A model generated the notes under the pieces. That model was given only the letters and a program-made list of their open reading frames with translations. It ran no database searches and was not told where the DNA came from. Position numbers and translations under genes: made by a program. This document shows positions 8,736 to 39,711 of a DNA stretch of 40,840 nt, piece by piece. This DNA comes from a virus. Location of the stretch: IMG/VR virus record IMGVR_UViG_3300028829_007974, positions 1 through 40,840 of that record; one strand, written 5' to 3'. Every line of letters begins with the position of its first letter. Positions within the stretch are counted from its first letter, which is position 1.

Positions 8736-8739
8736 GACC

Positions 8740-10021: not shown

Positions 10022-10030
10022 GGGCTAACA

Positions 10031-10801
10031 ATGTTTGTTGATTTCAATCATGGGTCCGGTTTTGTCTATGGCTGCGGCTATCCTACCCCGGACGCCAATC
10101 AGCGGATCAACACGCTTGTTGACCGGGCACTTGTTGATGAAAACCAGCGACAAGCTCCCCGCAACTATCTCGGGGCCAGCCGCATTGGTGAGCCTTGTGC
10201 GCGCAAGTTGGTTTATGAGTTCGCCCATACGCCCCCTGATCCCGGAAAGGAATTTGACGGTGGCGTCTTGCGCATTTTCGCCGCTGGTCATGTGTTTGAA
10301 GACCTGTCCATTCGTTGGTTGCGGGCGGCTGGTTTCGATCTGCGCACAAGTAATAACAACGGCGGGCAGTTCGGGTTTGAAACCGCCTCCGGGCGCATCA
10401 AGGGACACATTGACGGTGTCATTGTCGGTGGCCCTGATGTCGGCGTCACTTGGCCCGCACTCTGGGAGCACAAGGCTCTCAACGCCTCATCCTGGAACGA
10501 CACCGTCAAACGGGGCGTGCGTGCATCCAAGCCGGTTTATTACGGCCAATTGCAAATCTACATGGCCTACATGGATCTGCCCGTGGCGCTGTTCACGGCT
10601 CTAAATAAAGACACGCAAGCTCTTCATCACGAAGTGGTGCCATTTGACGCCGTCGAGGCGCAATTGCTGTCCGACAAGGCTGTCGATGTCATTCGCGCGG
10701 CGGACGCTGGTGAACTCCTGCCTAAAATTTCAAATCAATCCGATTTCTATCTTTGTCGTTGGTGCGTCTACGCCCGGCGCTGTTGGGAGTATTCCTCATG
10801 A
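10031..10801 (+). CDS. PD-(D/E)XK (RecB/Cas4-like) nuclease
   Basis: This 256-residue nuclease has the core motif in order: a conserved E in AAGHVFEDLSIRW, D in GRIKGHIDGVIVGG, and E-x-K in WPALWEHKALNASS, followed by the Q-x-x-Y helix GQLQIYMAY. The ASRIGEPCARKLVYEF segment near the N-terminus and FYLCRWCVYARRCW at the C-terminus together supply cysteines that may hold an Fe-S cluster, as in Cas4/AddB-type nucleases. It probably resects or processes DNA ends for the Sak4 pathway. The ATG at 10031 has GAGGG just upstream, and the stop overlaps the helicase start (ATGA). Confidence 0.88.
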   Translation: MFVDFNHGSGFVYGCGYPTPDANQRINTLVDRALVDENQRQAPRNYLGASRIGEPCARKLVYEFAHTPPDPGKEFDGGVLRIFAAGHVFEDLSIRWLRAAGFDLRTSNNNGGQFGFETASGRIKGHIDGVIVGGPDVGVTWPALWEHKALNASSWNDTVKRGVRASKPVYYGQLQIYMAYMDLPVALFTALNKDTQALHHEVVPFDAVEAQLLSDKAVDVIRAADAGELLPKISNQSDFYLCRWCVYARRCWEYSS

Positions 10802-12078
10802 CTTTCACCCCATCCCCCCTGCAAAGCAAAGCCATCGCCCAGATCAAGGATTGGTTTAACAATCAAACCAAAGACCAGCAGGTGTTCCGGGTGTTCGGCT
10901 ACGCGGGCAGCGGCAAAACCACCATCACAAAACACGCCATTGATGAGCTAAGTCTCTCGACTATGAGCCCCAATGGTGGACGGGGTGGTGTCCTATTTGC
11001 TGCTTTTACCGGCAAGGCCGCCCTGGTCATGAGCCGTAAAGGCACCCCGGCCTCCACCATTCACAGCCTCATCTATCGTGTCTCGGAAGCGACGCCCGAA
11101 GAGGTCGCCCGGGTCGAGGAAGAAGCCGCGAAACTGAGTACCAGCATTCTGACCATGCCTGCGTCGGAACGCGCCTTTGCGTCCGAACGCCTCAAACGTC
11201 TGGAACTGCGTCTCGCCGACATTCACAAACCCCAGTTTGTCTTGAATGAACAATCCTTGGTGCGTGACGCCGACCTCGTCGTTCTGGACGAAGTCTCCAT
11301 GGTCGGCGAAGAAATGGCCAGTGATCTTCTCGCCTTTGGCAAACCCGTCTTGGTGCTGGGTGATCCGGGTCAGTTACCTCCCATCAAGGGGGCCGGTGCG
11401 TTCACCGATGTCGAGCCCGACGTCATGCTGACCGAGGTTCATCGTCAGGCCGGGGACAGCGCTATCATCCGTCTAGCCACATTGGCCCGCCAAGGCCTCC
11501 CCATCCCACAGGGTCAACACGACGAACACGTTTGGAAGATGTCGCGCCGGGACGTGTCGCCCGCGCAGATGCTGATGGGCGGCCAGGTTATTTGTGGAAT
11601 GAACGCCACCCGGCGACAACTCAACAACGCCATGCGTCATGCGGCAGGTTTTGCCAACACTTATCCCACGGGCCGCAAAGAGAAACTCATCTGTCTCAAG
11701 AACCGCCACGACCTTGGCCTGATCAACGGCATGTTTATCGACCTCACGGACATTCGTGATGAAGGCCCCCTTGCGTTGAGCGCCGCCGTAAAAACCGAGG
11801 ATGGGGTTTCGATATCTGGCCGGGTCAAAATCTACAAAGGTCATTACGACGACCATGTCGCCTTTGACAGTGAGCGCTCGCGCAGGGACTGGCGCGATAT
11901 ACGAGGCCTGGTGGAGAGTGACTGGGGCTATGCAATCACTTGCCATAAAAGTCAGGGCTCGCAATGGGAAAATGTCCTCGTCTATGACGACGGCCTTGGC
12001 CGAACGTCGGAAGACCGGGCGCGCTGGCTTTATACCTCCATCACCCGTGCCGAGCGAGGGTTGGTGATCCTTGATTGA
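10798..12078 (+). CDS. RecD/Dda-like superfamily 1 DNA helicase
   Basis: This 426-residue helicase starts at 10798, in the nuclease stop (ATGA). Walker A is FGYAGSGKTTIT (about residues 31-42). Walker B is DLVVLDEVSMVGEEM. Motif III is LVLGDPGQLPPIKGAGAF, followed by VMLTEVHRQ (motif IV region). The C-terminal UvrD-like part has YAITCHKSQGSQWENVLVY (motif V) and WLYTSITRAERGLVIL (motif VI). It should unwind DNA 5' to 3' like RecD2/Dda. With the nuclease before it, it could act as a two-subunit end-processing unit; that pairing is inferred from gene order. Confidence 0.93.
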   Translation: MTFTPSPLQSKAIAQIKDWFNNQTKDQQVFRVFGYAGSGKTTITKHAIDELSLSTMSPNGGRGGVLFAAFTGKAALVMSRKGTPASTIHSLIYRVSEATPEEVARVEEEAAKLSTSILTMPASERAFASERLKRLELRLADIHKPQFVLNEQSLVRDADLVVLDEVSMVGEEMASDLLAFGKPVLVLGDPGQLPPIKGAGAFTDVEPDVMLTEVHRQAGDSAIIRLATLARQGLPIPQGQHDEHVWKMSRRDVSPAQMLMGGQVICGMNATRRQLNNAMRHAAGFANTYPTGRKEKLICLKNRHDLGLINGMFIDLTDIRDEGPLALSAAVKTEDGVSISGRVKIYKGHYDDHVAFDSERSRRDWRDIRGLVESDWGYAITCHKSQGSQWENVLVYDDGLGRTSEDRARWLYTSITRAERGLVILD

Positions 12079-14989
12079 TTTTAACGACGTCGTTTCGGGG
12101 CGCGTAAAACCCGTTCACTATGATTTGGACGCCATCGTCGCCCGATTGCGCGACACGGCGGAGCACTGGGTGCCGCAAAGCTTTCCCAACGGTAAGCGCA
12201 ATGGGGACGAGTGGCGGCTGGCCAACATCCGAGGTGATGCTCCGCGCAAAAACGGCTCGTGCGTGATCACCCTAAACGGTGAGCACGCTGGAGACTGGAT
12301 TGATTTTGATGGGGGTCAGGGCGGCGGTCCCTTAAGCACGCTGGAGCAAAGAACGGGGCTTTCGGGTCGCGATCTGTTTGCCCATGCGGCAGGCATGACG
12401 GGATGGACGGCAGGGTCACCACCGCGTCAGGAGCCCGCCGCCGCACCAAAGTCCGGTCGGGATCCGGCCAGTGAAATCGCCTTCATACTATCCCATGCCA
12501 AGGTCATAGAGCATACGCCCGCCGCCAATTTTCTGGCGGGCCGAGGTCTCAATATTCCTGATACAGCGGACCTGCTATTCCATCCCGACCTGACACACTG
12601 GGAAACCAAAACAGGGCTTCCGGCATTGGTCGCCATCGTTCGTGATAACGCTGGCAACGCCGTCGCCATTCATCGAACGTATCTACAAATTGATGCCGCT
12701 TCCGACGCCGTGACCAAGGCCGATGTCTCAAAGCCCCGCATGATGTTGGGCAAGGTCGCGGGCGGTGCCGTGCGTCTGTCGGAGATCGGCTCGGACGGCG
12801 TCATCGGACTTTGCGAGGGCATTGAGACCGGGTTGGCGGCGATGACCGCATGCCCTGATCTTTCCGTGTGGGCGACGTTGTCGGCAACCAATCTTGAGCA
12901 GGTTCACCTCCCTCCCGAGGCGACCCGGGTCGTCATATTGGCGGATCACGACGCATCCGGTGCGGGGTCTCGCGCCGCCGAAACCGCTGCTCGCCGCCTG
13001 CGTTCAGAAGGCCGCGTGGTAAGCATCGCGACGCCCCCACATGAAGGCGAGGATTTTAACGACCTGCTAATGCGTGAAGGTCCAGACGCGATCACGGAGA
13101 TTATGAGATCGACGCAATGGAATGATGCCGAAGATGAACTTGACGTTATAGGACGTCACATTCCCATTGGTTTCGTCCATCCGACCACATCTCTGCCCGC
13201 TCTGCGCGCCGATGAAGGTGATTTGGCACGGGCCGTCGATCGCGCGTGGAGCCTTCTGCTTACATCCAACCAGCCCCCTTGGCTGTTTAGGACCGCCGGG
13301 TTGCCAACCTGGATTGTTCCCGACGACGAAAGCCGTCCGTTCGCGTCAACGGTCACGGAAGAACGCCTGCGCTATATGCTGGCCAAAATCGCCCTGTGGC
13401 GGAGAATAGGACGAACCGGAGAGCTGGTCCCCACATCGCCTCCCACAGTTCTCGTTAAATCGCTCCTGGCGACGCCCGATCCAGGCCTGCCGATCCTGTC
13501 GGGCATCGTCACCACGCCGGTGTTTGGCCGAAGCGGCACGCTCCTGACAGAACCTGGATATCATCCGGACGCCCGGCTTCTATACCACGCCATTCCCGGC
13601 TTTAAGGTACCGCAAATTCCGGAGCATCCCAGCCCTGAGCAAATTGCTGAAGCGCGGAATCTTTTGCAAGACGACCTGTTCGGCGATTTTCCATTCACTT
13701 CACTAGCCGAGCGGGCACACGCCATTTCCCTGCTTCTGCTCGGATTTGTCCGCGCCTTAATTAATGGCTCAACGCCCCTACACCTGATTGAGAAACCGTC
13801 TCCCGGCACCGGTGCCACCCTTATGGTGGATGCGATCTCAACCATCGTCACCGGGACCGGCACCTTGGTCATGACTGAAAGCCGGGACGACGAGGAATGG
13901 CGCAAGCGGATCACCGCCAAGCTACGTCAAATCCCGGCCATCGTGTTGATTGACAATCTGCGGAGCAAGCTCGATTCCTCATCTCTCGCCGCCGCTTTGA
14001 CAGCCCCTTTTTGGGAAGATCGAATCCTTGGTGTGTCGGAAACGGTCCGTCTGCCCATCCGTTGTGTCTGGATCGCCACCGGCAACAATCCGGAATTCTC
14101 CAACGAAATGGCACGGCGTCTGGTGCGCATTCGTCTTGACGCCCGCGTTGACCAACCCTGGCGGCGAGAGGTGTTCAAACACCCGGATTTAATGGGCTGG
14201 GTTCGCGCCAACCGCGCCCGATTGGTTGCCGCCTGCCTAACCCTTTGCCGGGCGTGGATCAGCGCCGGACGACCCCGTGGACAGAGCAGCATCGGCAGTT
14301 ATGAGGCCTGGGCGCAAACCATGGGGGGCATTCTGGAGGTCGCGGGCATTGAGGGCTTCCTCGAGAATCTGGACGACATGATGGCGGCGTCTGACAGCGA
14401 GGGTGCCATGTGGCGTGGCTTTATTTCTTCATGGTGGGACCGGTTCGGCACGGCGGAGGTTAGCAGCGGTGATCTCTATGAATTGGCAATCACATGCGAA
14501 CCACCCCTGCCACTTGGCTCCGGTAATGAACGCTCTCAACGCACTAGGCTTGGCAAGTCGCTCGGGCGCATGCGCGACCGGGTGTTCGCCGTCGATGAGC
14601 GCAGCCTTCGGATTGGCGAGGCGGGAACTTATCAGGGTGCCAAGCGTTGGAACCTGAATATTGATGAAAATATAGGCATAAATCTCGTGAACGTCGTGAA
14701 CGTTGGTGAACGTTGTGCTTCAAACGTTCACGAAGGTAATCCATTGAATAACAACGGCTATTTGGACTCTCGTGAACGTCGTGAACGTGGTGAACGTTTA
14801 CCCCTTTCCTACGCGTATGCGGGGGCGCACGCGCCCGTGAAAGACCCCCCGGAAAAACGTTCACCACGTTCACCACGTTCACAAAGCCTAGGAAATCCAA
14901 GGGCTGTAGACGGTGAACGTTGCGGTGAACGTCAAAACGAACGTTCACCCATCACAAATCCACCCGACTGGCTCAAGGAGGTCCAGTGA
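12071..14989 (+). CDS. Toprim primase fused to AAA-type helicase-like domain
   Basis: This 972-residue protein overlaps the helicase stop by 8 bases and probably starts at TTG (12071). Residues about 30-110 look like a primase-type N-terminal domain (GDWIDFDGGQGG). The Toprim fold has GLCEGIETGLAAMTA (near 247) and VVILADHDASGAG (near 288), with GEDFNDLL after. The C-terminal half is AAA-like: Walker B AIVLIDNLRSKLD and sensor WIATGNNPEFSNEMARRLVRI. The Walker A position reads PSPGTGATL, with alanine 582 where lysine is expected, so ATP hydrolysis there is doubtful. Residues about 873-960 are low complexity because the DNA there carries an iteron-like array. It should prime and help initiate phage replication. 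Confidence 0.85.
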   Translation: MIDFNDVVSGRVKPVHYDLDAIVARLRDTAEHWVPQSFPNGKRNGDEWRLANIRGDAPRKNGSCVITLNGEHAGDWIDFDGGQGGGPLSTLEQRTGLSGRDLFAHAAGMTGWTAGSPPRQEPAAAPKSGRDPASEIAFILSHAKVIEHTPAANFLAGRGLNIPDTADLLFHPDLTHWETKTGLPALVAIVRDNAGNAVAIHRTYLQIDAASDAVTKADVSKPRMMLGKVAGGAVRLSEIGSDGVIGLCEGIETGLAAMTACPDLSVWATLSATNLEQVHLPPEATRVVILADHDASGAGSRAAETAARRLRSEGRVVSIATPPHEGEDFNDLLMREGPDAITEIMRSTQWNDAEDELDVIGRHIPIGFVHPTTSLPALRADEGDLARAVDRAWSLLLTSNQPPWLFRTAGLPTWIVPDDESRPFASTVTEERLRYMLAKIALWRRIGRTGELVPTSPPTVLVKSLLATPDPGLPILSGIVTTPVFGRSGTLLTEPGYHPDARLLYHAIPGFKVPQIPEHPSPEQIAEARNLLQDDLFGDFPFTSLAERAHAISLLLLGFVRALINGSTPLHLIEKPSPGTGATLMVDAISTIVTGTGTLVMTESRDDEEWRKRITAKLRQIPAIVLIDNLRSKLDSSSLAAALTAPFWEDRILGVSETVRLPIRCVWIATGNNPEFSNEMARRLVRIRLDARVDQPWRREVFKHPDLMGWVRANRARLVAACLTLCRAWISAGRPRGQSSIGSYEAWAQTMGGILEVAGIEGFLENLDDMMAASDSEGAMWRGFISSWWDRFGTAEVSSGDLYELAITCEPPLPLGSGNERSQRTRLGKSLGRMRDRVFAVDERSLRIGEAGTYQGAKRWNLNIDENIGINLVNVVNVGERCASNVHEGNPLNNNGYLDSRERRERGERLPLSYAYAGAHAPVKDPPEKRSPRSPRSQSLGNPRAVDGERCGERQNERSPITNPPDWLKEVQ
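14687..14948. repeat. Iteron-like array of 13 GTGAACG heptamers (candidate origin)
   Basis: GTGAACG occurs on the plus strand at 14687, 14696, 14706, 14772, 14781, 14790, 14913 and 14925. Its complement CGTTCAC occurs at 14725, 14858, 14867, 14876 and 14942. Within blocks the spacing is mostly 9 bases, about 0.9 helical turn. The blocks are read in different frames (VNVVNVGER, RERRERGER, RSPRSPRS), so the DNA rather than the protein is being kept. Lambda likewise has its origin iterons inside gene O. A replication origin or initiator/regulator site is the best reading. Confidence 0.75.
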
Positions 14990-28294: not shown

Positions 28295-28548
28295 ATCCGG
28301 GCGACCGCCAGTGTCCCTACCAGGAACATGCTCTGCAATCGGCAGAAGAACACCAGGCCTGGGACGTGCTCAGCGCCTGCCTCGGGCAACTACGATTCAC
28401 ACCATCTGGCCATGTGGCGGGCATCGATATGAATGCAGCCCTTAAAATTGCTGAGGCTCGAGGTTTCGAGCTGGGCGTTATGTCCGAGCTTCTGAGTGCA
28501 GCAGAGAATGGCCTGATTGAAGCAATGAACCAGAAAGAAGCAGATTAA
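28291..28548 (+). CDS. Tail assembly chaperone, T extension made by -1 frameshift
   Basis: These 85 codons have no good start of their own and are read after a -1 slip at 28285-28291, giving a GT-type fusion of about 252 residues. The extension (QEHALQSAEEHQAWDVLSAC; NAALKIAEARGFELGVMSEL) is helical, like lambda T domains that bridge the chaperone to the tube protein. A GTG at 28366 lies in this frame and could be mistaken for a start. The stop overlaps the tape-measure ATG (TAATG). Confidence 0.85.
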   Translation, partial: LNPGDRQCPYQEHALQSAEEHQAWDVLSACLGQLRFTPSGHVAGIDMNAALKIAEARGFELGVMSELLSAAENGLIEAMNQKEAD

Positions 28549-31466
28549 TGGCAAAAGCCAAACATACCTATGCAATCCGTCTCAGCGTTGACGGCGGCGG
28601 CAAGGTCAAGGCTGAGCTCTTGGATGTGGGTCGCGCTGGTGATAGGTCCCTCAAGAAAATTGAGAAGGCTGGTGGCAAAGCATCTCTCGGCCTTACTAAG
28701 CTATCTGACCGGGCTCAAGCCTTGGGTCGCAATATGAAGTTCCTCTACGGCGCAATTGCCGCCGCCGGGGCCATTCGTGGCTTGCAGGAAATGGTGAAAC
28801 TCTATGCCGACTTTGAAGCTGGCCTTATCGGTGTAGGAAAAACAGCAAACCTGTCCAAAACGGAACTGGCCTCACTGGGCCAGGACATCGACGCCCTTTC
28901 CAAACGCATCCCGGTGGCGACCGATGAACTACTGGCCATTGCCCAAAGTGCTGGGCAGCTGGGCGTGAAGGGATCTGCCAATATTCTCAGGTTTACCGAG
29001 ACCGTGGCCAAGCTTGGCACGGCAACGGATTTATCAGGTAATGATGCGGCCATGGCTCTGGCGCGCATTCTGAATGTTACCGGTGAGACCATGGATACCG
29101 TGGATGTACTGGGATCGGTGATCGTGGCTCTCGGCAATAATTTTGCCGCCACGGAAAGTCAGATTACAGAAATGACCACCGAGATCGCCCGAGCCACCGC
29201 CGTCTTCGGCGTAAGCTCTGCCCAGGCCTCAGCATTGGCAGCGGCATTGGCATCCGTCGGTGTTAAATCAGAAGTGGCAGGCACGTCGGTTGGGCGGGTT
29301 ATGCATATGATGGATGCCGCTGTGCGTAGTGGCGGTAAACATCTGGATATTCTCTCAAAGATCACCGGCCAAACCGGTGCACAAATTAAAACCTTGTTTG
29401 CTCAAGACTCTACGGCGGCCTTCGTGTTGTTCATCGAAGGGCTGAAACGGATCAGCGATGCTGGTGGATCAGCGGCGGAAGCCATGGCTGCATTAGGGCT
29501 GTCTGACCAACGTTTGTTAAAAACACTGCCCGTGTTGGCAAACCGTGCCGATCTATTGGCCACAGCGCTTAATCTTGCCAGCCGTGAGACCGAAAACGCC
29601 ACGGCCTTGAACGAGGAAGCGGTAAAGGCGTTTGAGAGCCTGAACAGCCAGACGGAGCTGATGTGGAACAACATCAAATCATTGGCGCGTTCTATCGGTG
29701 AAGATCTGGCCCCCGGTGTGACCACAGCGGTCAAGGAGCTGGGCAGTCTGGCCAATCAGGCCGGCGTCGCCTATGAGCAATTAAAACTGCTGGCCCAGGG
29801 CGATTTCAACCTCGACGGTCTCAGTCTTGGCAGCACCCGTTCCATTGTCGCAGAACGCCGCGCCGAGCTTCAGGAAATTGCCCGCGAATTAAACGAACTG
29901 GGCGACGTCGGGTTTATGGACGATCCCCTTGGCTGGGGCCGCAAGGTGGCATTGGAACGTCAGCTCAAGGAAAAGACGGCCATTTATCAGCAATGGTCGA
30001 CAAAGCTTGCCTGGATGCAAAGAGATATGGGTGGCAAGCCCGATCCAGAAACCAGTACACCCATACCTGAAGGCACTGTGGAGATTGATATCAAGGCGGC
30101 TCAAGTCAGAACAGATCGCATCACCAAGCTTGAAAAAGACCTGCAGCGGCAATTGTTCACTCTGACCCATCAGGGGGCGGACCGCATTCGGGCAGAATAT
30201 GAACAACTGGCAAAAGACGTTGAGGCCTTGCTGGCCCCGGATGGAAGCAACCGCCCTCAGGTTGATGCCTTGATGGATCAAGCAGCCTCTGTACGGGACG
30301 CCAAGTTGGCAAGGCTGGCAGCCAAGGCACAGGAAGCGGCGGATCGCATTGCTGAGGCAAATCGTAAGGTTGTTGATGGATTGCGCGCCGAGCATGATGC
30401 TCTGGCCATGACAGACAAGCAGCGTTATGTCTCTCAGGCTTTGCGGCGATTGTCGGCAGAGGCAACGGACGTTGAACAGCAACAGGTGCGGGAACTGGCC
30501 GGTACCTTGTTTGATGAGCAACAAGCCATTGAAGCCCGCAATAAGGCGGAAGAAGAATCTGCGAAGTTAAAAGAAAAGGGCCGCGCTCTTACGGAAAGTC
30601 TGCGGACGGCACAGGAAGTGTACAAGGCCGAGATTGCTGATCTCAATCGCCTGCTTGATGAAAGAGCGATTTCTCAGGAGACTTTTGCCCGTGCGTCCGA
30701 GGAAGCCTATGGCCGCATGCTCAGCGCCAGTCGGGAATGGTCGGACGGTGTCACGCGGGCATTGCGTGATTATGCTGATGAGGCTGGCAACGCCGCCAAG
30801 CAGTTTGAGCAGGTCACCACCCGGTCATTGAACGCTGGGGAAGATGCCTTTGTTCAATGGGCCAAGACCGGAAAGTTCAATGCTGCTGATTTGTTCAACA
30901 CCATTGCTGAAGAGGCGATGCGTGCGGCGATTCGCATGTCGGTGATCAAGCCCTTTAGTGGTTTTTTGGAAAACGTGTTCAGCACAATTGGAGCCAATCT
31001 GTTTAGCGGCGGATCATCCGCGCCGGTGGGAGACTTCCCCGCAGCCGGTCCGGTGATGGTTGCCCATACGGGTGGCGTCATTGGCATGGACACCCTTGCA
31101 AGCCGTTCCGTTGATCCGGTGGTGTTTGCTTCTGCGCCGCGCTTTCATGGCGGTGGTGTGGTCGGCGGCGAGGTCCCCATCATTGCCAAGCGTGGTGAGA
31201 CCGTATTTACGGCGGGCCAGATGCGGATGCTGGGATCTGAATTAGGACAAAAGCCGGAAGTTAAAGTTGTCGTCAACATCGATAACCGGGCTCCTGGTAC
31301 GGAGGCTACGGTTCAATCTCGCCGTGATGCCAGCGGCAACCTTGGCCTGGATATCGTTGTTGAAAAGGTCGAGGGAAAACTGGCACGCAATATCGGGCGT
31401 GGTGAAGGCTTGGCCCCGACACTTGAGCGACGCTATGGACTTAACCCGGCGGCAGGGAGTTACTGA
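28548..31466 (+). CDS. Tail tape measure protein
   Basis: This 972-residue protein sets tail length; at about 1.5 angstroms per residue, a tail near 145 nm is expected. The N-terminal third has the TP901-type core (FEAGLIGVGKTANLSKTELA; LAIAQSAGQLGVKGSANILR; MMDAAVRSGGKHLDILSKI). The middle is long coiled coil (about 430-780). The C-terminus has the lambda-like part (HTGGVIGMDTLASRSVDP, FHGGGVVGGEVPIIAKRGETVF). Its start overlaps the chaperone-extension stop, and its stop overlaps the next start (TGATG). Confidence 0.95.
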   Translation: MAKAKHTYAIRLSVDGGGKVKAELLDVGRAGDRSLKKIEKAGGKASLGLTKLSDRAQALGRNMKFLYGAIAAAGAIRGLQEMVKLYADFEAGLIGVGKTANLSKTELASLGQDIDALSKRIPVATDELLAIAQSAGQLGVKGSANILRFTETVAKLGTATDLSGNDAAMALARILNVTGETMDTVDVLGSVIVALGNNFAATESQITEMTTEIARATAVFGVSSAQASALAAALASVGVKSEVAGTSVGRVMHMMDAAVRSGGKHLDILSKITGQTGAQIKTLFAQDSTAAFVLFIEGLKRISDAGGSAAEAMAALGLSDQRLLKTLPVLANRADLLATALNLASRETENATALNEEAVKAFESLNSQTELMWNNIKSLARSIGEDLAPGVTTAVKELGSLANQAGVAYEQLKLLAQGDFNLDGLSLGSTRSIVAERRAELQEIARELNELGDVGFMDDPLGWGRKVALERQLKEKTAIYQQWSTKLAWMQRDMGGKPDPETSTPIPEGTVEIDIKAAQVRTDRITKLEKDLQRQLFTLTHQGADRIRAEYEQLAKDVEALLAPDGSNRPQVDALMDQAASVRDAKLARLAAKAQEAADRIAEANRKVVDGLRAEHDALAMTDKQRYVSQALRRLSAEATDVEQQQVRELAGTLFDEQQAIEARNKAEEESAKLKEKGRALTESLRTAQEVYKAEIADLNRLLDERAISQETFARASEEAYGRMLSASREWSDGVTRALRDYADEAGNAAKQFEQVTTRSLNAGEDAFVQWAKTGKFNAADLFNTIAEEAMRAAIRMSVIKPFSGFLENVFSTIGANLFSGGSSAPVGDFPAAGPVMVAHTGGVIGMDTLASRSVDPVVFASAPRFHGGGVVGGEVPIIAKRGETVFTAGQMRMLGSELGQKPEVKVVVNIDNRAPGTEATVQSRRDASGNLGLDIVVEKVEGKLARNIGRGEGLAPTLERRYGLNPAAGSY

Positions 31467-31945
31467 TGCCAATTACCTGGCCAACAACTCTGCCATTGCC
31501 CAGTATTCAAGGCTACGGCGTCCAACAAGGCGAAGCAATTCTGCGTACTGAGATGGAGGCTGGTCCTGCCCGGCAACGCCGTCGATACACCCAGGTGCCG
31601 AGCCAGATTGCCGTGCGCTGGACCTTCCGCCGCGACCAGTTCGCGTTGTTCGAGTCCTGGTATCGCTGGCACGCCAAGGAAGGCGGCGAATGGTTCGAGA
31701 TCGAACTTCTGGGCGGTATTGGAATGTCTGTCCACGAGGCCAGATTCACCAAACCCTTCGATGCCAAACCACGATCCGGAGTTTTATGGGAAGTCACCTC
31801 TGAATTGGAAATCCGTGAGCGTCCCGTTTTGACAGAGGACGCCCTGGCCATCGCGCTCGACAGCGACCTTTCCGCTTTATTCGCCAGCGTTGATCGGTTG
31901 CACGGGCTGGTGAACGTCTCACTCTTCAGCCCTTATTCTTGGTAG
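31466..31945 (+). CDS. Minor (distal) tail protein
   Basis: This 159-residue protein starts in the tape-measure stop (TGATG). It has the form of small distal-tail proteins: MPITWPTTLPLPSIQGYG, then IAVRWTFRRDQFALFESWYRW, GEWFEIEL and WEVTSELEIRERP. Similar proteins follow the tape measure in many siphoviruses of Proteobacteria and start the tail tip. In related phages the DUF1833 and NlpC/P60 genes come next; here the fibre/radical SAM block stands between. Confidence 0.78.
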   Translation: MPITWPTTLPLPSIQGYGVQQGEAILRTEMEAGPARQRRRYTQVPSQIAVRWTFRRDQFALFESWYRWHAKEGGEWFEIELLGGIGMSVHEARFTKPFDAKPRSGVLWEVTSELEIRERPVLTEDALAIALDSDLSALFASVDRLHGLVNVSLFSPYSW

Positions 31946-31956
31946 GAGAACTCCAA

Positions 31957-33162
31957 ATGACAATGCAGACCGATCTGCAGGCGGCTGTAGATAAGGCCAC
32001 GGCTGCCAGCGCCAAGCTACATGACGTCGTTCATGGCGATGACACTTCCACCGTCGCAACCGACTCTGGTTCGGTCAAAACGGTGGCCAAGGCGGTTGCC
32101 GACATCGAGGCCGATATTGATGCCAGCCGCATTGAGCTCGATCAAAAGGTTGCCGATGCTGCAGCCAGCGCCACGGCTTCTCAAGCCGCCAGAATTGCAT
32201 CGGAAACGGCTGAAACCGCATCAGAGACAGCCCAGTTAGGTGCCGAGATTGCCGAAGCCGGAGCGCTTGCTTCGGAGACAAACGCGAACGCGGCAAAAGC
32301 CGCTGCTGAAATAGCCCGCGATGCGGCCAGCGTCAGTGCCGGTCAGGCCGCGACAAGCCAGTCGGCGAGCGCTGCTTCAGAATCAGGCGCCGCTGCAAGT
32401 GCCCTGGCGGCTGTCACTTCCGAAAACAACGCCGCGACCAGCGACGGCATTGCAACCACAAAAGCCATAGAATCTTCCGCCAGCGCCGATGCTGCCGCCC
32501 TTTCCGCAACGGCCTCCGCCGCCAGCGCCTCAGAGGCCAGCGGTGCCGCCGCTTCCTTGAACCTGCCGACCGCGACTGGACAGGCGGGACAGTACCTTAG
32601 GCAAAAACAGGATGAAACGGGCCTTGAATATGCCCAGGTCGATCTTGCCAGCAGGGTAGACAAGACCGGCGATACCATGACGGGCGATCTGAACCTGCCC
32701 AACCTGGTCGCGACAGGTAATCTTCAGTCAGGGGCTGTCGGTGATAATGCCCGTAGCACTGGGTTCAAGATTGCTGACGGCACGGATATTGGTGAGCTTA
32801 ACCGGGTTAGCCAGTATTACGACGACCTTGCTGATAATTGCGCAGGCTATATTCCGACCGGCAATTGTAACTCTGATCTTCGGTGGACACCGCCCAATGG
32901 GGATTGGTGGAACTGGGGTCTTGGCTTCTCGCCCGCTAATCCCAACGGCTATGATTTTGCCGGAGGACAGACCATTGGTTACCAGGTCGTCCCGGTTGGC
33001 TTCGTCTACGGATCTTACAATCTCGCCGCCGATGAGATCGGTGGCGGCGAATACCGCCGGGATTACAACAACTGCAATTGCGGCGGCTTTAATTGTTACT
33101 CGAACTGCAATTGTAACTGTAACTGCAACTGTGCCTGCGACTGCAATTGCGGCGACGCCTGA
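31957..33162 (+). CDS. Tail fibre with Cys/Asn-rich C-terminus, candidate maturase substrate
   Basis: This 401-residue protein starts at the ATG with TAGGAGAA upstream. Residues about 60-210 are Ala/Ser/Glu-rich with repeated ASET and AA patterns, like trimeric fibre shafts. VDKTGDTMTGDLNLPNL (about 235-252) is a motif common in tail fibres. Then comes a Gly/Trp/Asn-rich domain (WTPPNGDWWNWGLGF). Residues 373-398 hold 11 cysteines: C373, 375, 380, and 384 to 398 at every second place, alternating mostly with Asn. Codons for Cys (TGC/TGT) and Asn (AAC/AAT) vary along the run, so the protein sequence is kept, not a DNA slip product. Two radical SAM genes lie downstream in the same string. A metal-binding tail is the alternative. 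Confidence 0.85.
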   Translation: MTMQTDLQAAVDKATAASAKLHDVVHGDDTSTVATDSGSVKTVAKAVADIEADIDASRIELDQKVADAAASATASQAARIASETAETASETAQLGAEIAEAGALASETNANAAKAAAEIARDAASVSAGQAATSQSASAASESGAAASALAAVTSENNAATSDGIATTKAIESSASADAAALSATASAASASEASGAAASLNLPTATGQAGQYLRQKQDETGLEYAQVDLASRVDKTGDTMTGDLNLPNLVATGNLQSGAVGDNARSTGFKIADGTDIGELNRVSQYYDDLADNCAGYIPTGNCNSDLRWTPPNGDWWNWGLGFSPANPNGYDFAGGQTIGYQVVPVGFVYGSYNLAADEIGGGEYRRDYNNCNCGGFNCYSNCNCNCNCNCACDCNCGDA

Positions 33163-33174
33163 GGAGTTCTCTCG

Positions 33175-34065
33175 ATGATCCAACCTTTTACGCGGCACTT
33201 CCCAGGATTAGGCGTGCCGGTTCTTCTATCTGTCCTTCGCGATCAGCGTCAGGTAACTCTCAGAACATTCCGGCAAGTCGCAAATGCTAACGCCCTAAAG
33301 GACGGTACCCGCACGGCTGACCCAAAAGAAATCACCGAACGCCTTGTTCGCCATGCGGCGTCCGATGCCGATTGGGAATACCGCTCAAAGTTGATTGACG
33401 GCGCAATCCTTGATCAGCGTTTCGCAGACAGGACCTACGAGCCTCTTGGCGGTGTCTGCCTGGATCTGGATTCAGCTCTCGGCATTGCCGAATGGAGCGA
33501 TTACGCAAACTGGGTATTCCCACTGGATCAGCAAGGAGCGCCGGGAACGCCTTTTAACCGTTATATAGAAACGACCAACACCAAGGCTCGCACTCCGCGC
33601 CTTCTTCAATTGAAGAAAGTTAACTGCGCCCTGCAGATTTATGTGCCTTTTGGATCCTGTGATTTTGCAAATTGCAGCTTCAGCATCGCGCTTCACCCTG
33701 ACTTCGGAATGATTGGCAATCTTGATCCAGGAGCCAAAGTTACCTTTGCCGAAGTGCTCAAAGGCGCATCCCGGGCCTTCCCCAAACTCGCGATCTCGGG
33801 GCCCACAGAAGTAACAGCTGATGGAAGCGCCTTGCTGACACTATCGCTCAAAACCATAAGCGGCACCCTGATCAGAGATGCCATGCCACAGGTCTATATT
33901 GAGCAGACCGCAGGATATCTGCCCAAAAGCCGATTGGTGCCACAGGATGGAAAAGCTCAGTTCAAGGTGATGGCGCTCGGCCTTGAGGTCGGCGACAGCA
34001 TTAGGGTCAAGGCCGGGTTCCGACATTACGGCGGGCTCGCCGATCATACGCTCCGGGTTGTCTGA
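33175..34065 (+). CDS. Unknown protein between fibre and radical SAM genes, Ig-like C-terminus
   Basis: This 296-residue protein follows the fibre by 12 bases with GGAG before the ATG, and its stop overlaps the first radical SAM gene (TGATG). I do not recognise the N-terminal 180 residues, which include GGVCLDLDSALGIAEWSDYANWVF and CALQIYVPFGSCDFANCSF. Residues about 195-296 look like a bacterial Ig-like/invasin fold (LAISGPTEVTADGSALLTLSL; GDSIRVKAGF). There are four cysteines in all. It may be a fibre-associated adhesin or a substrate-presenting partner for the enzymes. No RiPP recognition element could be made out by eye. Confidence 0.75.
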   Translation: MIQPFTRHFPGLGVPVLLSVLRDQRQVTLRTFRQVANANALKDGTRTADPKEITERLVRHAASDADWEYRSKLIDGAILDQRFADRTYEPLGGVCLDLDSALGIAEWSDYANWVFPLDQQGAPGTPFNRYIETTNTKARTPRLLQLKKVNCALQIYVPFGSCDFANCSFSIALHPDFGMIGNLDPGAKVTFAEVLKGASRAFPKLAISGPTEVTADGSALLTLSLKTISGTLIRDAMPQVYIEQTAGYLPKSRLVPQDGKAQFKVMALGLEVGDSIRVKAGFRHYGGLADHTLRVV

Positions 34066-35081
34066 TGCTTAACGTTTTTCTGGGGTACGCCTGTAATTTC
34101 AAGTGCGGTTATTGTCTGCAATCGCCGGGGTCGCCACCGGCACGGAATAAACAAGACGACGTGGAGAAATTCGTCGATGAGGTCGTTCCTTTTCTGCAAA
34201 AGAACGGCATCGACGAGATCGCCTACTGGGGCGGCGAGCCACTTCTTTACTGGCCTCAGATCGAGATCATTCATGAGGAATTATTGCGTGCTGGTTTGAC
34301 ATTCCAGTTCGTCAAATTCGTCACCAACGGCTCGCTTCTTGATGATCATTATGTTGAAACACTGAACCGCTGGGGAGCCTATGTCGTCGTCAGCAGGCAT
34401 AATGTGGAGAGTGAGCCAAGCTGGAACAATGTTGCAAAATTACGCCGCTCCAGCGTCTCGTTCCTGTTTACTCATAAAGAGTTATACGCATGGCCATGGT
34501 TCCATGCCTTGGACACGTTGGAGCAGCGTTGGGGACGGCCATTCTTTCCCTACGTTCACTGGGTGCGGGCGACAGCGGGGTGCGCTTCGGGGTTCTATCT
34601 GACCCACAATGACCTTGATCATCATGTTCCCCATCTCTGGGAACTGGCGGAACGGCGCTTGGCTGGAGACCGGTATGCACGGTCCATGTTCGAAGGGCAT
34701 CTTCGTGACTGGCAACGGGATCTGGTTCCCGGCGGCGACGGCATTCCCATGTGCCATGGCGACCATCATATCTCGGTTGATCTTGCCGGCAACCGGTATG
34801 GCTGTCATCACTCGGCCCGGAGTGAACTCAGGACCGGTAGTATCTTCGGCTCAGAAGAAGCGACACCGGAAACAAAGCGTGCAATTGCGCATGTCGAGAA
34901 ATTCGTAAAGAGCGGCGAGTGCATGACTTGCCCCATACGGTCCTGGTGCCGGGGTAACTGCCATCTCTCCGACACTCATGATGTCGACTGCCGCCTCGCC
35001 AAGGAAAAACACAAATTACTCGCCTGGATCGACGCCCAGGAAAGCGGCTCCAACGACCGAAACTCCATAAAGGTTCCCTGA
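34065..35081 (+). CDS. Radical SAM/SPASM enzyme 1
   Basis: This 338-residue enzyme has the radical SAM motif at the very N-terminus, C10-NFK-C14-GY-C17, binding the [4Fe-4S] cluster that cleaves S-adenosylmethionine. YWGGEPLLYW is the SAM-binding GGE motif, and FVTNGSLL follows. The C-terminal SPASM domain is complete: C before ISVDLAGNRYGC (the GX4C motif), then CMTCPIRSWCRGNC (CX2CX5CX3C) and a last C nine residues on, enough for two auxiliary clusters. SPASM enzymes typically modify peptides or proteins. It is coupled to the gene before it and three bases from the next enzyme. Likely substrate: the fibre tail. The product is unknown. Confidence 0.93.
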   Translation: MLNVFLGYACNFKCGYCLQSPGSPPARNKQDDVEKFVDEVVPFLQKNGIDEIAYWGGEPLLYWPQIEIIHEELLRAGLTFQFVKFVTNGSLLDDHYVETLNRWGAYVVVSRHNVESEPSWNNVAKLRRSSVSFLFTHKELYAWPWFHALDTLEQRWGRPFFPYVHWVRATAGCASGFYLTHNDLDHHVPHLWELAERRLAGDRYARSMFEGHLRDWQRDLVPGGDGIPMCHGDHHISVDLAGNRYGCHHSARSELRTGSIFGSEEATPETKRAIAHVEKFVKSGECMTCPIRSWCRGNCHLSDTHDVDCRLAKEKHKLLAWIDAQESGSNDRNSIKVP

Positions 35082-35084
35082 CCC

Positions 35085-36461
35085 ATGACCGATAATCTCC
35101 AATACCGCCTCACCATGCGGGGGCGGAACGGCTACCTGCGCCATTTACTCTACCGGCCTCACGAGTCACGACTGAACTGGGAGGATAACGGCGAGCGCGT
35201 TTCTCTGAATGCGGTCAGTATGGGATATAAAGACCGGGACCGCACTTGGAAACCGGCGTTCCCGATGAGCCCGGAGAACCCGGCCCGTAAATCGAGGGCC
35301 GTGCGCACCCTCAAAATCCAGATGGGCCTCAAGTGCAACTTCTCATGCGCTTATTGCAACCAGGCGAGCCAAGGAGGGCAAGCCAACGGCAACGTCGCAG
35401 ATGCCAAGGCGTTTCTGGAAAACCTTCCGGACTGGCTTCATGCGGATCCAGACAATCTCCGGGTTGAGTTCTGGGGCGGTGAGCCGTTTGTTTATTGGAA
35501 AGCGCTCAAAGTTCTGGGCGATGGATTGCGGGAAAGATTACCCAAGGCACAATTTAACATCATCACCAATGGCTCGCTGCTCGACAACGACAAAATCAAT
35601 TGGCTGGATGAACTGGAGTTTGGCGTCAGCATCAGTCACGACGGTCCTGCCCATAAAGCCACACGCGGTCCCGACCCGCTGGAAGTCCCGGCAACGCGGC
35701 AAACCATCCGTAAGCTTTATGATCGGCTGTTTCCCAAGGGTAAGATTGGATTCGGCTGTGTGCTGACCAAGGACAATCGGTCCCTTGTGGCTGTCCGTGA
35801 ATACATCGGAGAAAGGCTCGGCATTCCGGCCCATGATATCCCGTTGTCGACTGAAGAAATCCTGCTTCCCTATGATCAGGGCGGCATGGCGTTATCACCC
35901 TCGACGGATGAAGAGCACGAGCAGTTCCTAACTGACGTATTTTGGGAGGCCGTTCGTGGCGGTTCCATGCCGGTGGGTGCTGTTCGCGGAAAATGCGAGG
36001 ATTTTTACAGGTCCCTGGCCCAAGGCCGCCCAACCCGAACACTCGGCCAGAAATGCGGCATGGACAAGCCCGAGCATCTGGCCGTCGATCTAAAGGGCAA
36101 TGTGCTCACCTGCCAGAACACCAGTGCCACCATGAGGCATGGTATAGGCAGTGTTGAAGCCTTCGATGATATTCGCCTGACCACGTCGCGGCATTGGTCA
36201 ACACGGCCCGAATGCAACCGTTGTCCCGTTGTCCAGCTTTGCAAAGGCTCCTGTATGTTCCTGGAGGGCGATCTGTGGGATCAGGCTTGTGACAATAGCT
36301 ACACCTGGAACCTCTCCATGTTGGCGGTCGCGCTCTATTGGTTGACCCGACTGGTGCTGGTCGAAATTGAGGGGCCATCGCGACGTCCGGGTTTGCCGAA
36401 CAAAATGTCGGTCATTGCGTTAACGGACTTGCAGGATGGTGCCGGAGGCCCTGATGCCTGA
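35085..36461 (+). CDS. Radical SAM/SPASM enzyme 2
   Basis: This 458-residue enzyme is distinct from its neighbour. About 80 residues precede the radical SAM motif C84-NFS-C88-AY-C91 and may bind substrate (RGRNGYLRHLLYRPHESRL). FWGGEPFVYW is the GGE motif and IITNGSLL follows, then VSISHDGP. SPASM: C before GMDKPEHLAVDLKGNVLTC (GX4C), then CNRCPVVQLCKGSC (CX2CX5CX3C) and C 12 residues later. A hydrophobic stretch near residue 413 (MLAVALYWLTRLVLVEI) follows. Two SPASM enzymes with a dipeptide-repeat target recall the His-Xaa-Ser (Hxs) systems. Its stop overlaps the DUF1833 start by 8 bases, so the block is embedded in the tail operon. Confidence 0.93.
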   Translation: MTDNLQYRLTMRGRNGYLRHLLYRPHESRLNWEDNGERVSLNAVSMGYKDRDRTWKPAFPMSPENPARKSRAVRTLKIQMGLKCNFSCAYCNQASQGGQANGNVADAKAFLENLPDWLHADPDNLRVEFWGGEPFVYWKALKVLGDGLRERLPKAQFNIITNGSLLDNDKINWLDELEFGVSISHDGPAHKATRGPDPLEVPATRQTIRKLYDRLFPKGKIGFGCVLTKDNRSLVAVREYIGERLGIPAHDIPLSTEEILLPYDQGGMALSPSTDEEHEQFLTDVFWEAVRGGSMPVGAVRGKCEDFYRSLAQGRPTRTLGQKCGMDKPEHLAVDLKGNVLTCQNTSATMRHGIGSVEAFDDIRLTTSRHWSTRPECNRCPVVQLCKGSCMFLEGDLWDQACDNSYTWNLSMLAVALYWLTRLVLVEIEGPSRRPGLPNKMSVIALTDLQDGAGGPDA

Positions 36462-36996
36462 TCCGGCTCTTTCTCAGGCAATCAAGGAGGCTTACGCTGC
36501 CGCTCCGTCCGACGTGGTGATCCTGCATACGCTGGAACTGCGGCATCCGGCCTTTGTTGATGACGATGGCATTGTCACTGCCATCCGGGTGGTGCGAGAT
36601 CATGTAAATATGGCTGTTCGGTTGGAATCAGGTGCTCCATTGGATGGAGGAGCCATGGTGACGTTTGTGGCGCTGGCGTTTGATCTGTCATTGCCACCCA
36701 TCGACACCGCTCCCGTGCCGGAGATCACGGTGACGCTGGATAACGTGTCTCGTGAAATTGTCCGGCATCTGGATGCGGCGGTGGCAACACAGGACAAAAT
36801 TGAGATTACCTATCGACCTTATCTATCCACTGATCTGGAGGGGCCGCAGATGGATCCGCCGATCACCCTGGTTCTGACCGAGGTCGAGGCAAACGCGCTG
36901 CAGATTACTGGCCGGGCTCGGATGCTCGATATCGGCAACAAAGCGTTTCCGGCGGAGATCTATACGGCGAAGCGGTTTCCAGGGTTAGCGAGATAA
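36454..36996 (+). CDS. DUF1833 tail protein
   Basis: This 180-residue protein starts at the ATG with GGAGG about 7 bases upstream, overlapping the radical SAM gene. It matches DUF1833: PDVVILHTLEL-type strand (SDVVILHTLELRHPAF), IRVVRDHVNMAVRL, MVTFVALAFDLSLPP and DNVSREIVRHLDAA. DUF1833 proteins lie in the tail-tip region between the distal tail and NlpC/P60 genes, equivalent to lambda L. It marks the return to the normal tail order after the inserted fibre/enzyme block. Confidence 0.9.
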   Translation: MPDPALSQAIKEAYAAAPSDVVILHTLELRHPAFVDDDGIVTAIRVVRDHVNMAVRLESGAPLDGGAMVTFVALAFDLSLPPIDTAPVPEITVTLDNVSREIVRHLDAAVATQDKIEITYRPYLSTDLEGPQMDPPITLVLTEVEANALQITGRARMLDIGNKAFPAEIYTAKRFPGLAR

Positions 36997-36999
36997 ATC

Positions 37000-37395
37000 A
37001 TGCATTGGGCAGAAACGTATATTGGCATTCCTTGGTCGGCGACAGGGGAAGGACCGGACAACTATCACTGCTGGGCCTTTGTTCGCCATATCCAGAAAGA
37101 GCACTTTGGACGAACTTTGCCGGGCATTCCCAATCCCGAAGATGTCCTCGCTATTGCTCGCGGGTTCAGGGATCACCCAGAACGGCGGCGTTGGAAATTG
37201 GCAAAGGAGGCATTCGCAGGCGATTGCGTGCTTATGCGCCAGGCTCGCTATCCAATTCATGTGGGCATTTGGCTTGATGTTGATAATGGCGGTGTTTTGC
37301 ATTGCTCCCAAGACGCTGGGGCGGCGTTTCAAACTTTAAATTCTCTGTCTTTGAACGGCTGGGCCGTCGAAGGCTTTTACAGGTTTACCGGATAA
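37000..37395 (+). CDS. NlpC/P60-family tail peptidase
   Basis: This 131-residue protein is a tail-tip peptidoglycan hydrolase of the NlpC/P60 type, equivalent to lambda gpK's C-terminal part. Catalytic cysteine is in DNYHCWAFVRHIQ and histidine in YPIHVGIWLD. It begins four bases after the DUF1833 stop and overlaps the J start by one base (TAATG). It probably helps DNA cross the cell wall at infection. It lacks the JAB domain that lambda gpK carries. Confidence 0.9.
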   Translation: MHWAETYIGIPWSATGEGPDNYHCWAFVRHIQKEHFGRTLPGIPNPEDVLAIARGFRDHPERRRWKLAKEAFAGDCVLMRQARYPIHVGIWLDVDNGGVLHCSQDAGAAFQTLNSLSLNGWAVEGFYRFTG

Positions 37396-39335
37396 TGCTG
37401 GCTTGCGTCTTCATGATAAATAACCCGTTCCAACCGGGGCGGAGCCGAGAAGCCTTGCCCGTGGCACAGTCGGTATCTGTGCGGGGATGGTTGGATGGTG
37501 AGGGCATCGATGAATTCGACCGCCCGACAATTTGCCTGCACAATGGACGGGCCTTATTGCGGGCTGACTGGAATTCCACCCTCATCAACGAGGGGGATGT
37601 GGTCACCTTTGTAGCATTGCCCCATGGCGGTGGTGGTGGGGGCGGCAAAAACCCTCTTAAAACGGTTCTCTCCATTGCTTTGATGGTGGCAGCACCCGCC
37701 TTGGGTGGTCCGCTTGCGGGGTCCATGGGACTGACCGGTAGCCTGTTTGCCGGAACGGCCTTTGAAATTGGCTGGGGTACGGTTCTGGGCGGTGTTGTGT
37801 CTCTGGCCGGATCGGCCTTAATCAATGCCGTTATTCCGTCGCCACGCACATCTGTTCCAAGTACGAACTTCAGCTCTGTTGGATCACCTCCAGCACCGAG
37901 CCCTACTTATTCGTTATCGGCACAAGGCAATGAAGCCCGGTTGGGTCAACCCATCCCGGTTCTCTATGGTCGGCACCTGATTTATCCGGATTTGGCCTCC
38001 CATCCCTATCAGGAGTTTCTGGGCAATGAGCAGTACATGTTCCAACTGCATGTCATTGGCCAGGGGGAATATGATCTGGAACAGGTGCGCATTGAAGACA
38101 CACCCATTTCCTCATTTGAAGAAGTGCAAACTGAGGTCGTTGGCCCAGGCGGCAGCGTCACCTTGTTTGAGACCGACGTGGTCACCGCGCCCGAAGTGGC
38201 AGGACAGGAATTGCTCAGCTCCGCTGATGGTGGTGGCTGGATTGGTCCGTTTACGGCCAACCCGGCGGCGACACAGGCAGGAAGCCTTGATATTGATGTG
38301 ATCTTCCCGCGAGGTCTCTATTACGCCAATGATGCGGGTGGGCTTGATACACGTAGTCTTCAATGGAAAGTCCAGGCCAGAAGCATTGATGACGATGGCA
38401 TTGCGGTTGGTAGTTGGGTGACCTTGGGCAGCGAGAGTTATTCTGCGGCCACCAATACGGCGCAACGCCAAAGTTTTAAGTACACTGTTACGCCGGGTCG
38501 ATATGAAGTGCGCTTGCAACGGTTAGATACTAAAGACTCCTCGTCTCGCGCCGGTCATGAAATCCGCTGGGGTGCGCTTAGGTCCTATTTGGACGGCGCG
38601 CCTGATTTTGGCGACGTGACTTTGTTGGCAGTTAAGATGCGGGCCACCGATAATCTGTCGCAACGCTCATCCCGCATGATCAACTGTATTGTCACCCGCA
38701 GGCTTCCTGTCTGGAACTCTGTAACCGGGTGGAGCGCGCCGGTGCCCACACGTTCCATTGCCTGGGCCTTTGCCGATGCTTGCCGATCCCAATATGGTGC
38801 CAAGCTGGCAGATGCCAGAATTGACCTGAATGCCTTGGTCGCACTTGATCAAACTTGGGCTGATCGTGGTGACGAGTTTAGCGGCATCTTCGATAGCTCC
38901 ATGACCGTGTGGGAGGCGCTTAATCGTATCGCCCGCTGTGGTCGCGCCGTGCCAGTGCTTCAAGGGGGTGTCGTTCGCATCTTCCGAGACGCGGTTCAAA
39001 CATTGCCCATAGCCATGTTCGGCCCCCGCAACATCGTTAAAGGATCGTTCAAAATCCAGTACATCATGCCGGGCGAGGAAACGGCAGACTCTGTGACGGT
39101 CACCTTCTTTAATGCCCGCACATGGAAGCCAGATGAAGTCACGGCGGCATTGTCTGACAGCGCCATTGAGAAACCAGCCAAGGTTTCGTTGTTCGGCTGC
39201 ACCGGAGAGGCTCAGGCCCAACGGGAAGGTCTCTACATGGCCGGACAACCGGTATCGACGCAAGTTGGTCTCCTGGTCAACGGAACTCGAAGGGATGATC
39301 CCCACCTATGGCGACCTGGTTGTGATCACCCATGA
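37395..39335 (+). pseudogene. Tail-tip/host-specificity protein J-like, frame 1 (frame disrupted)
   Basis: The frame starts at the ATG in the NlpC/P60 stop (37395). It begins MINNPFQPGRSREALPV, REWL-like RGWLDG, PTICLHNGRALLRADW and a GGGGGGGKNPL run before hydrophobic segments, the usual start of gpJ-like proteins in these phages. Hub-type domains follow (GQPIPVLYGRHLIYPD; WEALNRIARCGRAVPVLQGG). Near 39237-39243 the match moves to the +1 frame: frame 1 reads GLYMAGQPVSTQ and soon stops, while the expected NRYRRKLVSWSTELEG is in frame 2. One extra base (or a loss of two) explains it. It is a mutation, a sequence error or, less likely, a programmed shift. Confidence 0.8.
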
Positions 39336-39711
39336 TATGCCGCACTGGGGACAGGGTGGAGAAGTGGTGGACTGGGATGACCAGGCACAAATAATGACGC
39401 TTTCAGAGCCGGTTGTCTTGGAGCCAAACACCAGTCATTACATTGCCCTACGTCGCCGTGACGGGTCTCTTTCCGGACCGTTTGCCGTGGAAGCTGTGGT
39501 TGGGAATGACGCCCAGGTCCATCTGCTGGAGGCGATTGAGATCACCCCCTATACCGACACATCGGAAGAGCGCACACATTTTGCCTTCGGCATGGGCGAT
39601 GCCTGGGGCACCAAGGCCCGGGTCATTGCCGTCAAACCCCGTGGTGAGCATGTGGAAATTACCGCCGTTGCTGAGGACGTTCGCGTTCATGAAGCTGATC
39701 TCGCCGCCTGA
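39238..39711 (+). pseudogene. J-like tail-tip protein, C-terminal part in the +1 frame
   Basis: This frame continues the J-like protein: DNRYRRKLVSWSTELEGM, PTYGDLVVITHDMPHWGQGG and LEPNTSHYIALRRRDGSLSGPF, ending near HEADLAA. These match the middle/end of gpJ-like proteins, which run directly on from the segment encoded in frame 1. The frame is open further left (from 39112) but only as a shadow. An ATG at 39293 has GAAGGG just before it, so a separate short product is possible though unlikely. Without a repair the tail tip would not be assembled. Confidence 0.75.

Follow-up and report, generated by a model that had tools for sequence, protein, structure and literature searches.

The closest described relatives of the system reported here are peptide-maturation systems built around radical SAM/SPASM enzymes. 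Freyrasin carries six Cys-Asp S-Cβ links (PMC8172795), the TVG gene cluster includes an Fe/2OG oxygenase (PMC9062424), and SSN cluster 59 comprises a RiPP of unknown modification in which an Asp-Cys motif, repeated up to six times, is encoded beside a radical SAM gene (PMC9062424). Such genes have been noted in phages as well: pelagimyophages possess radical SAM cassettes in their host-recognition cluster beside the tail fibres (PMC7029224), and radical SAM genes have been recorded in Campylobacter phages (PMC3322345).

The DNA analysed here (the window) is the entire IMG/VR record IMGVR_UViG_3300028829_007974, 40,840 bases in length, whose tail genes are siphovirus-like. It is best read as a siphovirus-like phage or prophage that carries a RiPP-like maturation cassette within its tail operon, the presumed substrate being the Asn-Cys repeat with which a tail fibre ends.

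The tail operon and its fibre gene

The tail operon of the window contains the following features:

28548..31466, plus strand: tape-measure-like tail protein, proposed from its length and position and inferred from synteny
31466..31945, plus strand: virion structural protein (phrog_384, by PHROG match), 5' of the fibre gene
31957 (ATG)..33162, plus strand: tail-fibre protein of 401 residues with an Ala-rich coiled-coil-like N-terminal part, a C-terminal head and an Asn-Cys tail (phrog_24159, tail fiber, E 1.5e-6)
33061..33162, plus strand: C-terminal Asn-Cys tract DYNNCNCGGFNCYSNCNCNCNCNCACDCNCGDA plus stop codon (from codons and homologue comparison)
33175..34065, plus strand: protein X, 296 residues, a conserved partner gene (from its model and the presence of its family)
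34065..35081, plus strand: radical SAM/SPASM enzyme 1, 338 residues (PF04055, E 6e-13; TIGR04085 above cut-off)
35085..36461, plus strand: radical SAM/SPASM enzyme 2, 458 residues, phrog_1802, the constant enzyme of the cassette (PHROG and SPASM profile)
36436..36996, plus strand: DUF1833 minor tail protein, 3' of the cassette (profile match)
37000..37395, plus strand: NlpC/P60 minor tail protein (profile match)
37302 onward: tail-tip protein, in the tail operon

Similarity to a tail-fibre family, together with position and synteny in the tail operon, identifies the 401-residue protein as a phage tail fibre; it matched no Pfam or NCBIfam model and, as a query against named phages, returned no match. 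Both radical SAM/SPASM genes are situated 0.9-3.3 kb 3' of the tract in the same operon.

Several other features of the window deserve mention. The tail-tip (gpJ-like) gene is split between two ORFs, 37302-39335 and 39112-39711, which overlap and differ in frame; a single 777-residue ORF (8336-10666) spans both in the related locus L001, which suggests a frameshift or an assembly error in the window. At the left end, Rfam detects a 5'-truncated tRNA (1-73) while ARAGORN reports none, and the ORF at 3458-4810 resembles, by eye, a large serine recombinase; the two might possibly mark a prophage attachment site. Clustered 9-bp repeats in opposite orientations (TCGTGAACG / ACGTTCACC), iteron-like in appearance, are found at 14685-14882, towards the 3' end of the long primase/helicase-like ORF at 12071-14989.

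The Asn-Cys tract: selection, grammar and linkage to an enzyme

The C-terminus of the fibre reads NNCNCGGFNCYSNCNCNCNCNCACDCNCGDA, and the translation of its ORF (31957-33162) closes with ...EYRRDYNNCNCGGFNCYSNCNCNCNCNCACDCNCGDA and the stop. The uninterrupted X-Cys run extends over eight units (33103-33150) and is preceded by three more NC pairs, which gives 11 Cys in total. An earlier note on this DNA had correctly reported the coordinates of the tract, the length of the fibre and the mixed use of AAC and AAT for Asn and of TGC and TGT for Cys, and it had argued from the latter, and from the lack of a simple period, that the tract is maintained by selection on the protein. The statement on periodicity needs qualification: Tandem Repeats Finder reports 6-, 12- and 18-bp arrays in the tract, but these are imperfect and match to only 72-79%, a degree of periodicity that codon constraint alone would yield. 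This weak signal is what could be said for the tract being a neutral or recent product of repeat slippage that has no function.

The comparison of synonymous and non-synonymous changes, which the earlier note had proposed beforehand, decided this matter. Among the window and its nearest homologues in IMG/VR (L001, with 86% identity in enzyme 2, as well as L183, L098 and L129), pS in the tract is saturated (0.47-1.17) while pN is merely 0.06-0.10. All Cys residues that can be aligned between these five sequences are conserved and Asn is replaced by Ala or Asp only, which bears out the reading of the note; insertions and deletions among the relatives are mostly two codons long, and neither random loss or frame-shifting of the tract nor units identical at the DNA level were seen in the homologues. 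In L098 and L129 the first 300 residues of the fibre form a different scaffold, and the head and the tract stay alike. Recurrence of the tract at the C-terminus of many unrelated scaffolds likewise speaks against slippage, which is refuted by the pN/pS comparison and to which we assign a negligible probability. Residue-shuffled ORFs from the loci yielded a comparable tail in 0 of 20,051 cases, and real ORFs with such a tail numbered 198 on the strand of the enzyme and 0 on the opposite strand. The pN/pS values, the shuffles and the homologues together rule out a chance origin; computationally, the tract is under protein-level selection.

A common grammar is apparent in 132 non-redundant terminal tracts. 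The residue preceding Cys is Asn in 73%, Ala in 12% and Asp in 8% of the units; Asn occupies the first X position in 122, the second in 119 and the third in 104 of these tracts, and later positions are relaxed. Half of the tracts without a Hint domain end exactly at the C-terminus of the protein, and most others end no more than four residues from it. The scaffolds that carry them match many different PHROG tail-fibre families. Many unrelated fibre scaffolds carry the tract at their very C-terminus or close to it, and it appears to have moved between them, always together with the enzyme.

Some loci display unusual arrangements. Three tandem proteins with such tails are encoded in L017 and L049, and two copies of enzyme 2 accompany two NC-tailed proteins in L174 (2697-9000). 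Proteins of 128-137 residues that are Cys-rich both in an internal stretch (CACNACNSACNCNCGNC) and at the C-terminus (NCNCNCACNCNCACNCNC) are encoded near enzyme 2 in L004 (4440-4823) and its relatives L005-L013, on viral contigs that are often large.

When enzyme 2 was used as a query in IMG/VR, 66 viral loci were recovered, and an upstream ORF with an NC tract, usually C-terminal, was found on the strand of the enzyme in 59 of them; the loci without a tract are mostly those without upstream DNA. Grouped at 70% identity, the enzymes form 40 clusters, nearly all of which show the tract, mostly at a distance of 0-3 kb. Prokaryote genomes gave a similar picture: the tract is present at 63 of 80 enzyme loci, most of the misses are cut by contig ends, and two further loci with full flanks possess a YCSYCSYCTCACSDCSC variant. 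Most named hosts belong to the Alpha- or Betaproteobacteria, and a small number of MAG contigs bear the labels of other phyla; prophage hosts with the cassette include Thalassobacter stenotrophicus CECT 5294, Limnohabitans strains and Magnetospirillum molischianum DSM 120. In plasmids, no enzyme 2 was detected at E 1e-30.

To avoid circularity, an independent scan of IMG/VR DNA started from the tract and not from the enzyme, and it found at least 119 stretches with NCNCNCNC codons (AAYTGY x4). Among the matches listed, the enzyme lies downstream on the same strand for 62 of 63 C-terminal tracts (those that end an ORF of at least 60 residues and have at least 3 kb downstream), as opposed to 1 of 12 other hits, found at other positions of an ORF or in a spurious frame (Fisher p about 3e-11, counted over a sample of partly non-independent loci with 60 distinct C-terminal tails). 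The sole enzyme-bearing member of the latter group among these matches, L182, has a tract of the window type followed by a Hint-like domain. The single exception among the C-terminal tracts, L178, lacks an enzyme within 3.6 kb and encodes protein X just downstream. A different arrangement is seen in L082 (44-943), where enzyme 2 is upstream, not downstream, of the tract and where a further 169 residues, hydrophobic in places and not recognised as a Hint domain, come after the tract; a gene fusion or a sequencing error is possible. In phages that share the flanking tail genes and do not carry the enzyme, the corresponding fibre is poor in Cys. From both search directions, therefore, the tract co-occurs with the phrog_1802-type radical SAM/SPASM enzyme almost without exception.

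This association weighs on two explanations that dispense with modification of the tract. In the first, the alternating Cys residues, which would be good ligands, form a tip that binds Zn, Fe or an iron-sulfur centre like the metal-bearing needle tips of some phages, with the radical SAM enzyme acting elsewhere or loading the cluster; the variable length of the tract and its fixed Cys spacing fit such a role, but it accounts neither for the near-constant need for a radical SAM/SPASM enzyme nor for the bias towards Asn, Ala and Asp at the positions that alternate with Cys, and we regard it as unlikely. In the second, inter-chain disulfides staple the C-termini of a fibre trimer as a cystine knot and the radical SAM gene is a hitchhiker. 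Most tail fibres are trimers, and both the C-terminal position and the many Cys residues are in keeping with this idea; the near-perfect two-way association with the enzyme, the folding of fibres in the reducing cytoplasm and the apparent transfer of the tract between scaffolds, always with the enzyme, render it improbable.

The radical SAM/SPASM enzymes, their partner genes and the Hint domain

Enzyme 1 contains a CxxxCxxC motif (GYACNFKCGYC) and was found in only nine fetched loci, that is, in a minority of the cassettes. Enzyme 2, assigned to phrog_1802 with an E-value of 1e-56, belongs to the radical SAM/SPASM superfamily, since it possesses the CxxxCxxC motif and the SPASM Cys set (CX13GX4C ... 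CX2CX5CX3C ... C) and scores above the TIGR04085 cut-off. In 27 diverse homologues the residues C84, C88, C91, C324, G338, C343, C377, C380, C386, C390 and C402 are invariant, and thus the CxxxCxxC motif and seven SPASM Cys residues. Its AlphaFold (AF2) model has a mean pLDDT of 90 and a fold that matches SPASM enzymes; the nearest PDB entries (anSMEcpe, CteB, ChlB, SuiB and TigE) are mostly peptide or protein maturases, and the top profile match is TigE (8vpo). The N-terminus is modelled as a beta hairpin, and an RRE-type domain was not recognised in this prediction. The Campylobacter phage radical SAM protein is weakly similar to the enzyme.

Comparison with NCBIfam placed enzyme 2 in no named maturase family, as no such cut-off was reached. 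The PapB model (NF047865) ranked first or second for every copy of enzyme 2 that was scored, and first for enzyme 1; nevertheless, an assignment of enzyme 2 as a PapB-type ranthipeptide maturase is rejected at 61 bits against a cut-off of 340 (other members, 56-65). An identity as a SCIFF, sactipeptide or nif11 maturase (TIGR03974, TIGR04064, TIGR04068) fails as well, with at best 74 bits versus 519, and so does that as an anaerobic sulfatase maturase (TIGR03942), with 40 bits versus 349. The last value bears on a proposal in which Cys residues would be converted to formylglycine, so that a row of aldehydes at the tip could bond covalently to amines on the host surface. This proposal draws on anSMEcpe being among the nearest solved structures in both sequence and fold, and on the annotation of the copy in phage JWF as an anaerobic sulfatase-maturating enzyme. 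Apart from the low score, the preference for Asn, Ala and Asp is unlike the CxPxR-type motif of sulfatases, and a nearly invariant Gln aligns with Asp277 of anSMEcpe, the catalytic base, which comes after the SPASM Cys in that enzyme. Sulfatase-maturase chemistry on the tract is consequently weakened, and we consider it unlikely.

The family of protein X is present in 156 fetched loci. Its model (pLDDT 94) predicts a mixed alpha/beta protein with a confident, novel-looking N-terminal part and a C-terminal Ig-like domain; it has no Pfam, NCBIfam or PHROG match and no full-length match in the PDB, and its viral fold matches are uncharacterised phage proteins. A role as an RRE-like binder of a leader is unsupported by the predicted fold; protein X may serve as a virion component, as a chaperone or in presenting the substrate. 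Members of a 2OG-Fe(II) oxygenase family occur in 99 fetched loci, and the copy that was tested matches PF13759. The peptidase and exporter models matched none of the cassette genes.

In fibres of several prophages and of two cultured Achromobacter phages, JWF and 2-1, the tract is immediately followed by a Hint domain. In JWF and 2-1 the fibre reads ...NCNCDCNCNCSC-FPAGTMVLMADG..., and the first Cys of the Hint domain (Hom_end_hint, PF05203; E 3e-12 and 5e-12, 47.5 and 46.6 bits versus a Pfam cut-off of 32.1) is the last Cys of the tract. These fibres (L070, 6712-8163; L071, 6685-8127) combine a Shufflon_N-like segment with the NC tract and the Hint domain. The same succession is seen with weaker Hint scores in L182, L203-L206, L216 (Burkholderia paludis MSh1) and L260, the scores of L182, L203, L204, L216 and L260 being below the cut-offs. 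On the enzyme tree, the Hint trait needs four changes, at least two of which are forced by supported branches. Self-cleavage is established for the Hint family; by analogy, it would make the tract the C-terminus, as it is in other phages.

Partner genes and Hint domains also bear on whether the tract might be a true RiPP core for which the fibre serves as leader and which proteolysis would set free to act as a bacteriocin or signal. The radical SAM/SPASM neighbours and the C-terminal core position are RiPP-like, and the Asp-Cys repeat peptide of the survey cited above, whose product is unknown, offers a parallel (PMC9062424). Nonetheless, the lack of any match of the cassette genes to peptidase or exporter models, the nature of the carrier as a structural fibre from diverse tail-fibre families and the placement of the Hint domain after the tract, not before it, make such a release improbable.

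Proposed maturation of fibre tips and its relation to known systems

We suggest that phages widely encode a RiPP-like maturation of tail-fibre C-termini for which the XC repeats are the substrate, a reading drawn from sequence comparisons to which we attach a probability of about 0.8. Since a gene for a dedicated radical SAM enzyme almost invariably lies a short way downstream of the tract, the fibre tips are probably altered chemically, and enzyme 2 very probably modifies the tract. The fibre would be made first; enzyme 2, sometimes joined by enzyme 1 or the oxygenase, would then work repeatedly along the tract, as has been described for TvgB on its repeats (PMC9062424), and the modified tail would become the fibre tip, in the Hint-bearing versions after cleavage. 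As to the chemistry, our first guess, with an even chance of being right, is that multiple Cys residues become joined through thioethers to the alpha or beta carbon of nearby Asn, Asp or Ala residues in the manner of ranthipeptides and sactipeptides, and that the 2OG-Fe(II) oxygenase or the second radical SAM enzyme sometimes introduces an additional oxidation; this guess is based on the fixed Cys positions, on the alpha and beta C-H bonds that Asn, Asp and Ala all offer, and on the presence of CteB among the closest structures. Modified tips might be rigid, protease-resistant or crosslinked, and might assist in host binding or in the locking of fibre trimers. It should be noted that radical SAM chemistry is oxygen-sensitive and that the hosts are often aerobic, which counts against our reading. 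The same applies to the RRE-type domain that was not recognised in enzyme 2, to its scores below every NCBIfam maturase cut-off, and to the loci L178 and L082.

The earlier note had likened the tract to the core peptide of a RiPP precursor. This comparison gains from the two radical SAM/SPASM maturase-like genes in the operon, to which the note made no reference and which provide a clustered enzyme beside a C-terminal core-like tract; it does not extend to a canonical RiPP, because the tract forms the end of a structural protein, a short precursor or leader is absent, and peptide release is not indicated.

Tail fibres set the host range of phages, and their diversity is thought to be one of sequence and fold. 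In its broadest form, which we hold to be somewhat better than an even bet, our proposal is that a new radical SAM/SPASM family adds repeated covalent links to C-terminal (Xaa-Cys)n fibre tails, exposed by Hint domains in some lineages, so that a hardened or reactive virion tip would decide host attachment in phages of several proteobacterial groups and possibly of others. If dozens of phage lineages do keep a dedicated modifying enzyme beside the fibre tip, the chemistry of the receptor-binding tip could not be read from the genome sequence by itself. The system provides an enzyme family whose substrate motif is clear and which is represented in cultured phages and prophages; it suggests a likely function for the phage radical SAM genes that had been seen in host-recognition regions with no role assigned, and it might be used to staple protein fibres at their ends. 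Searches of an open-access library returned no report of tail fibres modified by radical SAM enzymes, and within this scope the novelty is provisional.

Among the known systems, the ranthipeptide (PapB) and SCIFF (CteB) maturases resemble that of the phages in that a radical SAM/SPASM enzyme adjoins a Cys-rich C-terminal substrate, and CteB is one of the solved structures closest to enzyme 2. The phage enzymes differ in that they fall well short of the family cut-offs (about 60 of 340 bits) and that no RRE is recognised in them, and their substrate is a fibre tail with alternating Xaa-Cys in place of the spaced Cys-X3-Asp arrangement. With the TVG/TIG systems (TvgB, TigE) the phages share the use of one enzyme for many copies of a short repeat and, in some cassettes, a 2OG-Fe(II) oxygenase; the TVG repeat, in contrast, is Cys-less, belongs to a small free peptide and receives a C-C bond on Val. 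SSN cluster 59 could be a distant relative, compared here by its description only; it is a three-gene cluster of peptide, radical SAM enzyme and recombinase, and the article text mentions neither phages nor Asn-Cys (PMC9062424). The pelagimyophage and Campylobacter phage papers, in their available portions, name no substrate and do not mention a link to a fibre tract (PMC7029224, PMC3322345). Hedgehog and intein proteins share the Hint domain, which in several fibres directly follows the tract; in the phages it stands behind a tail-fibre repeat, and its cleavage would uncover a C-terminus that is modified. Radical SAM/SPASM peptide maturation is a known kind of process; what appears new is the substrate on which it would act, the location of this substrate on virions and how widely the system occurs.
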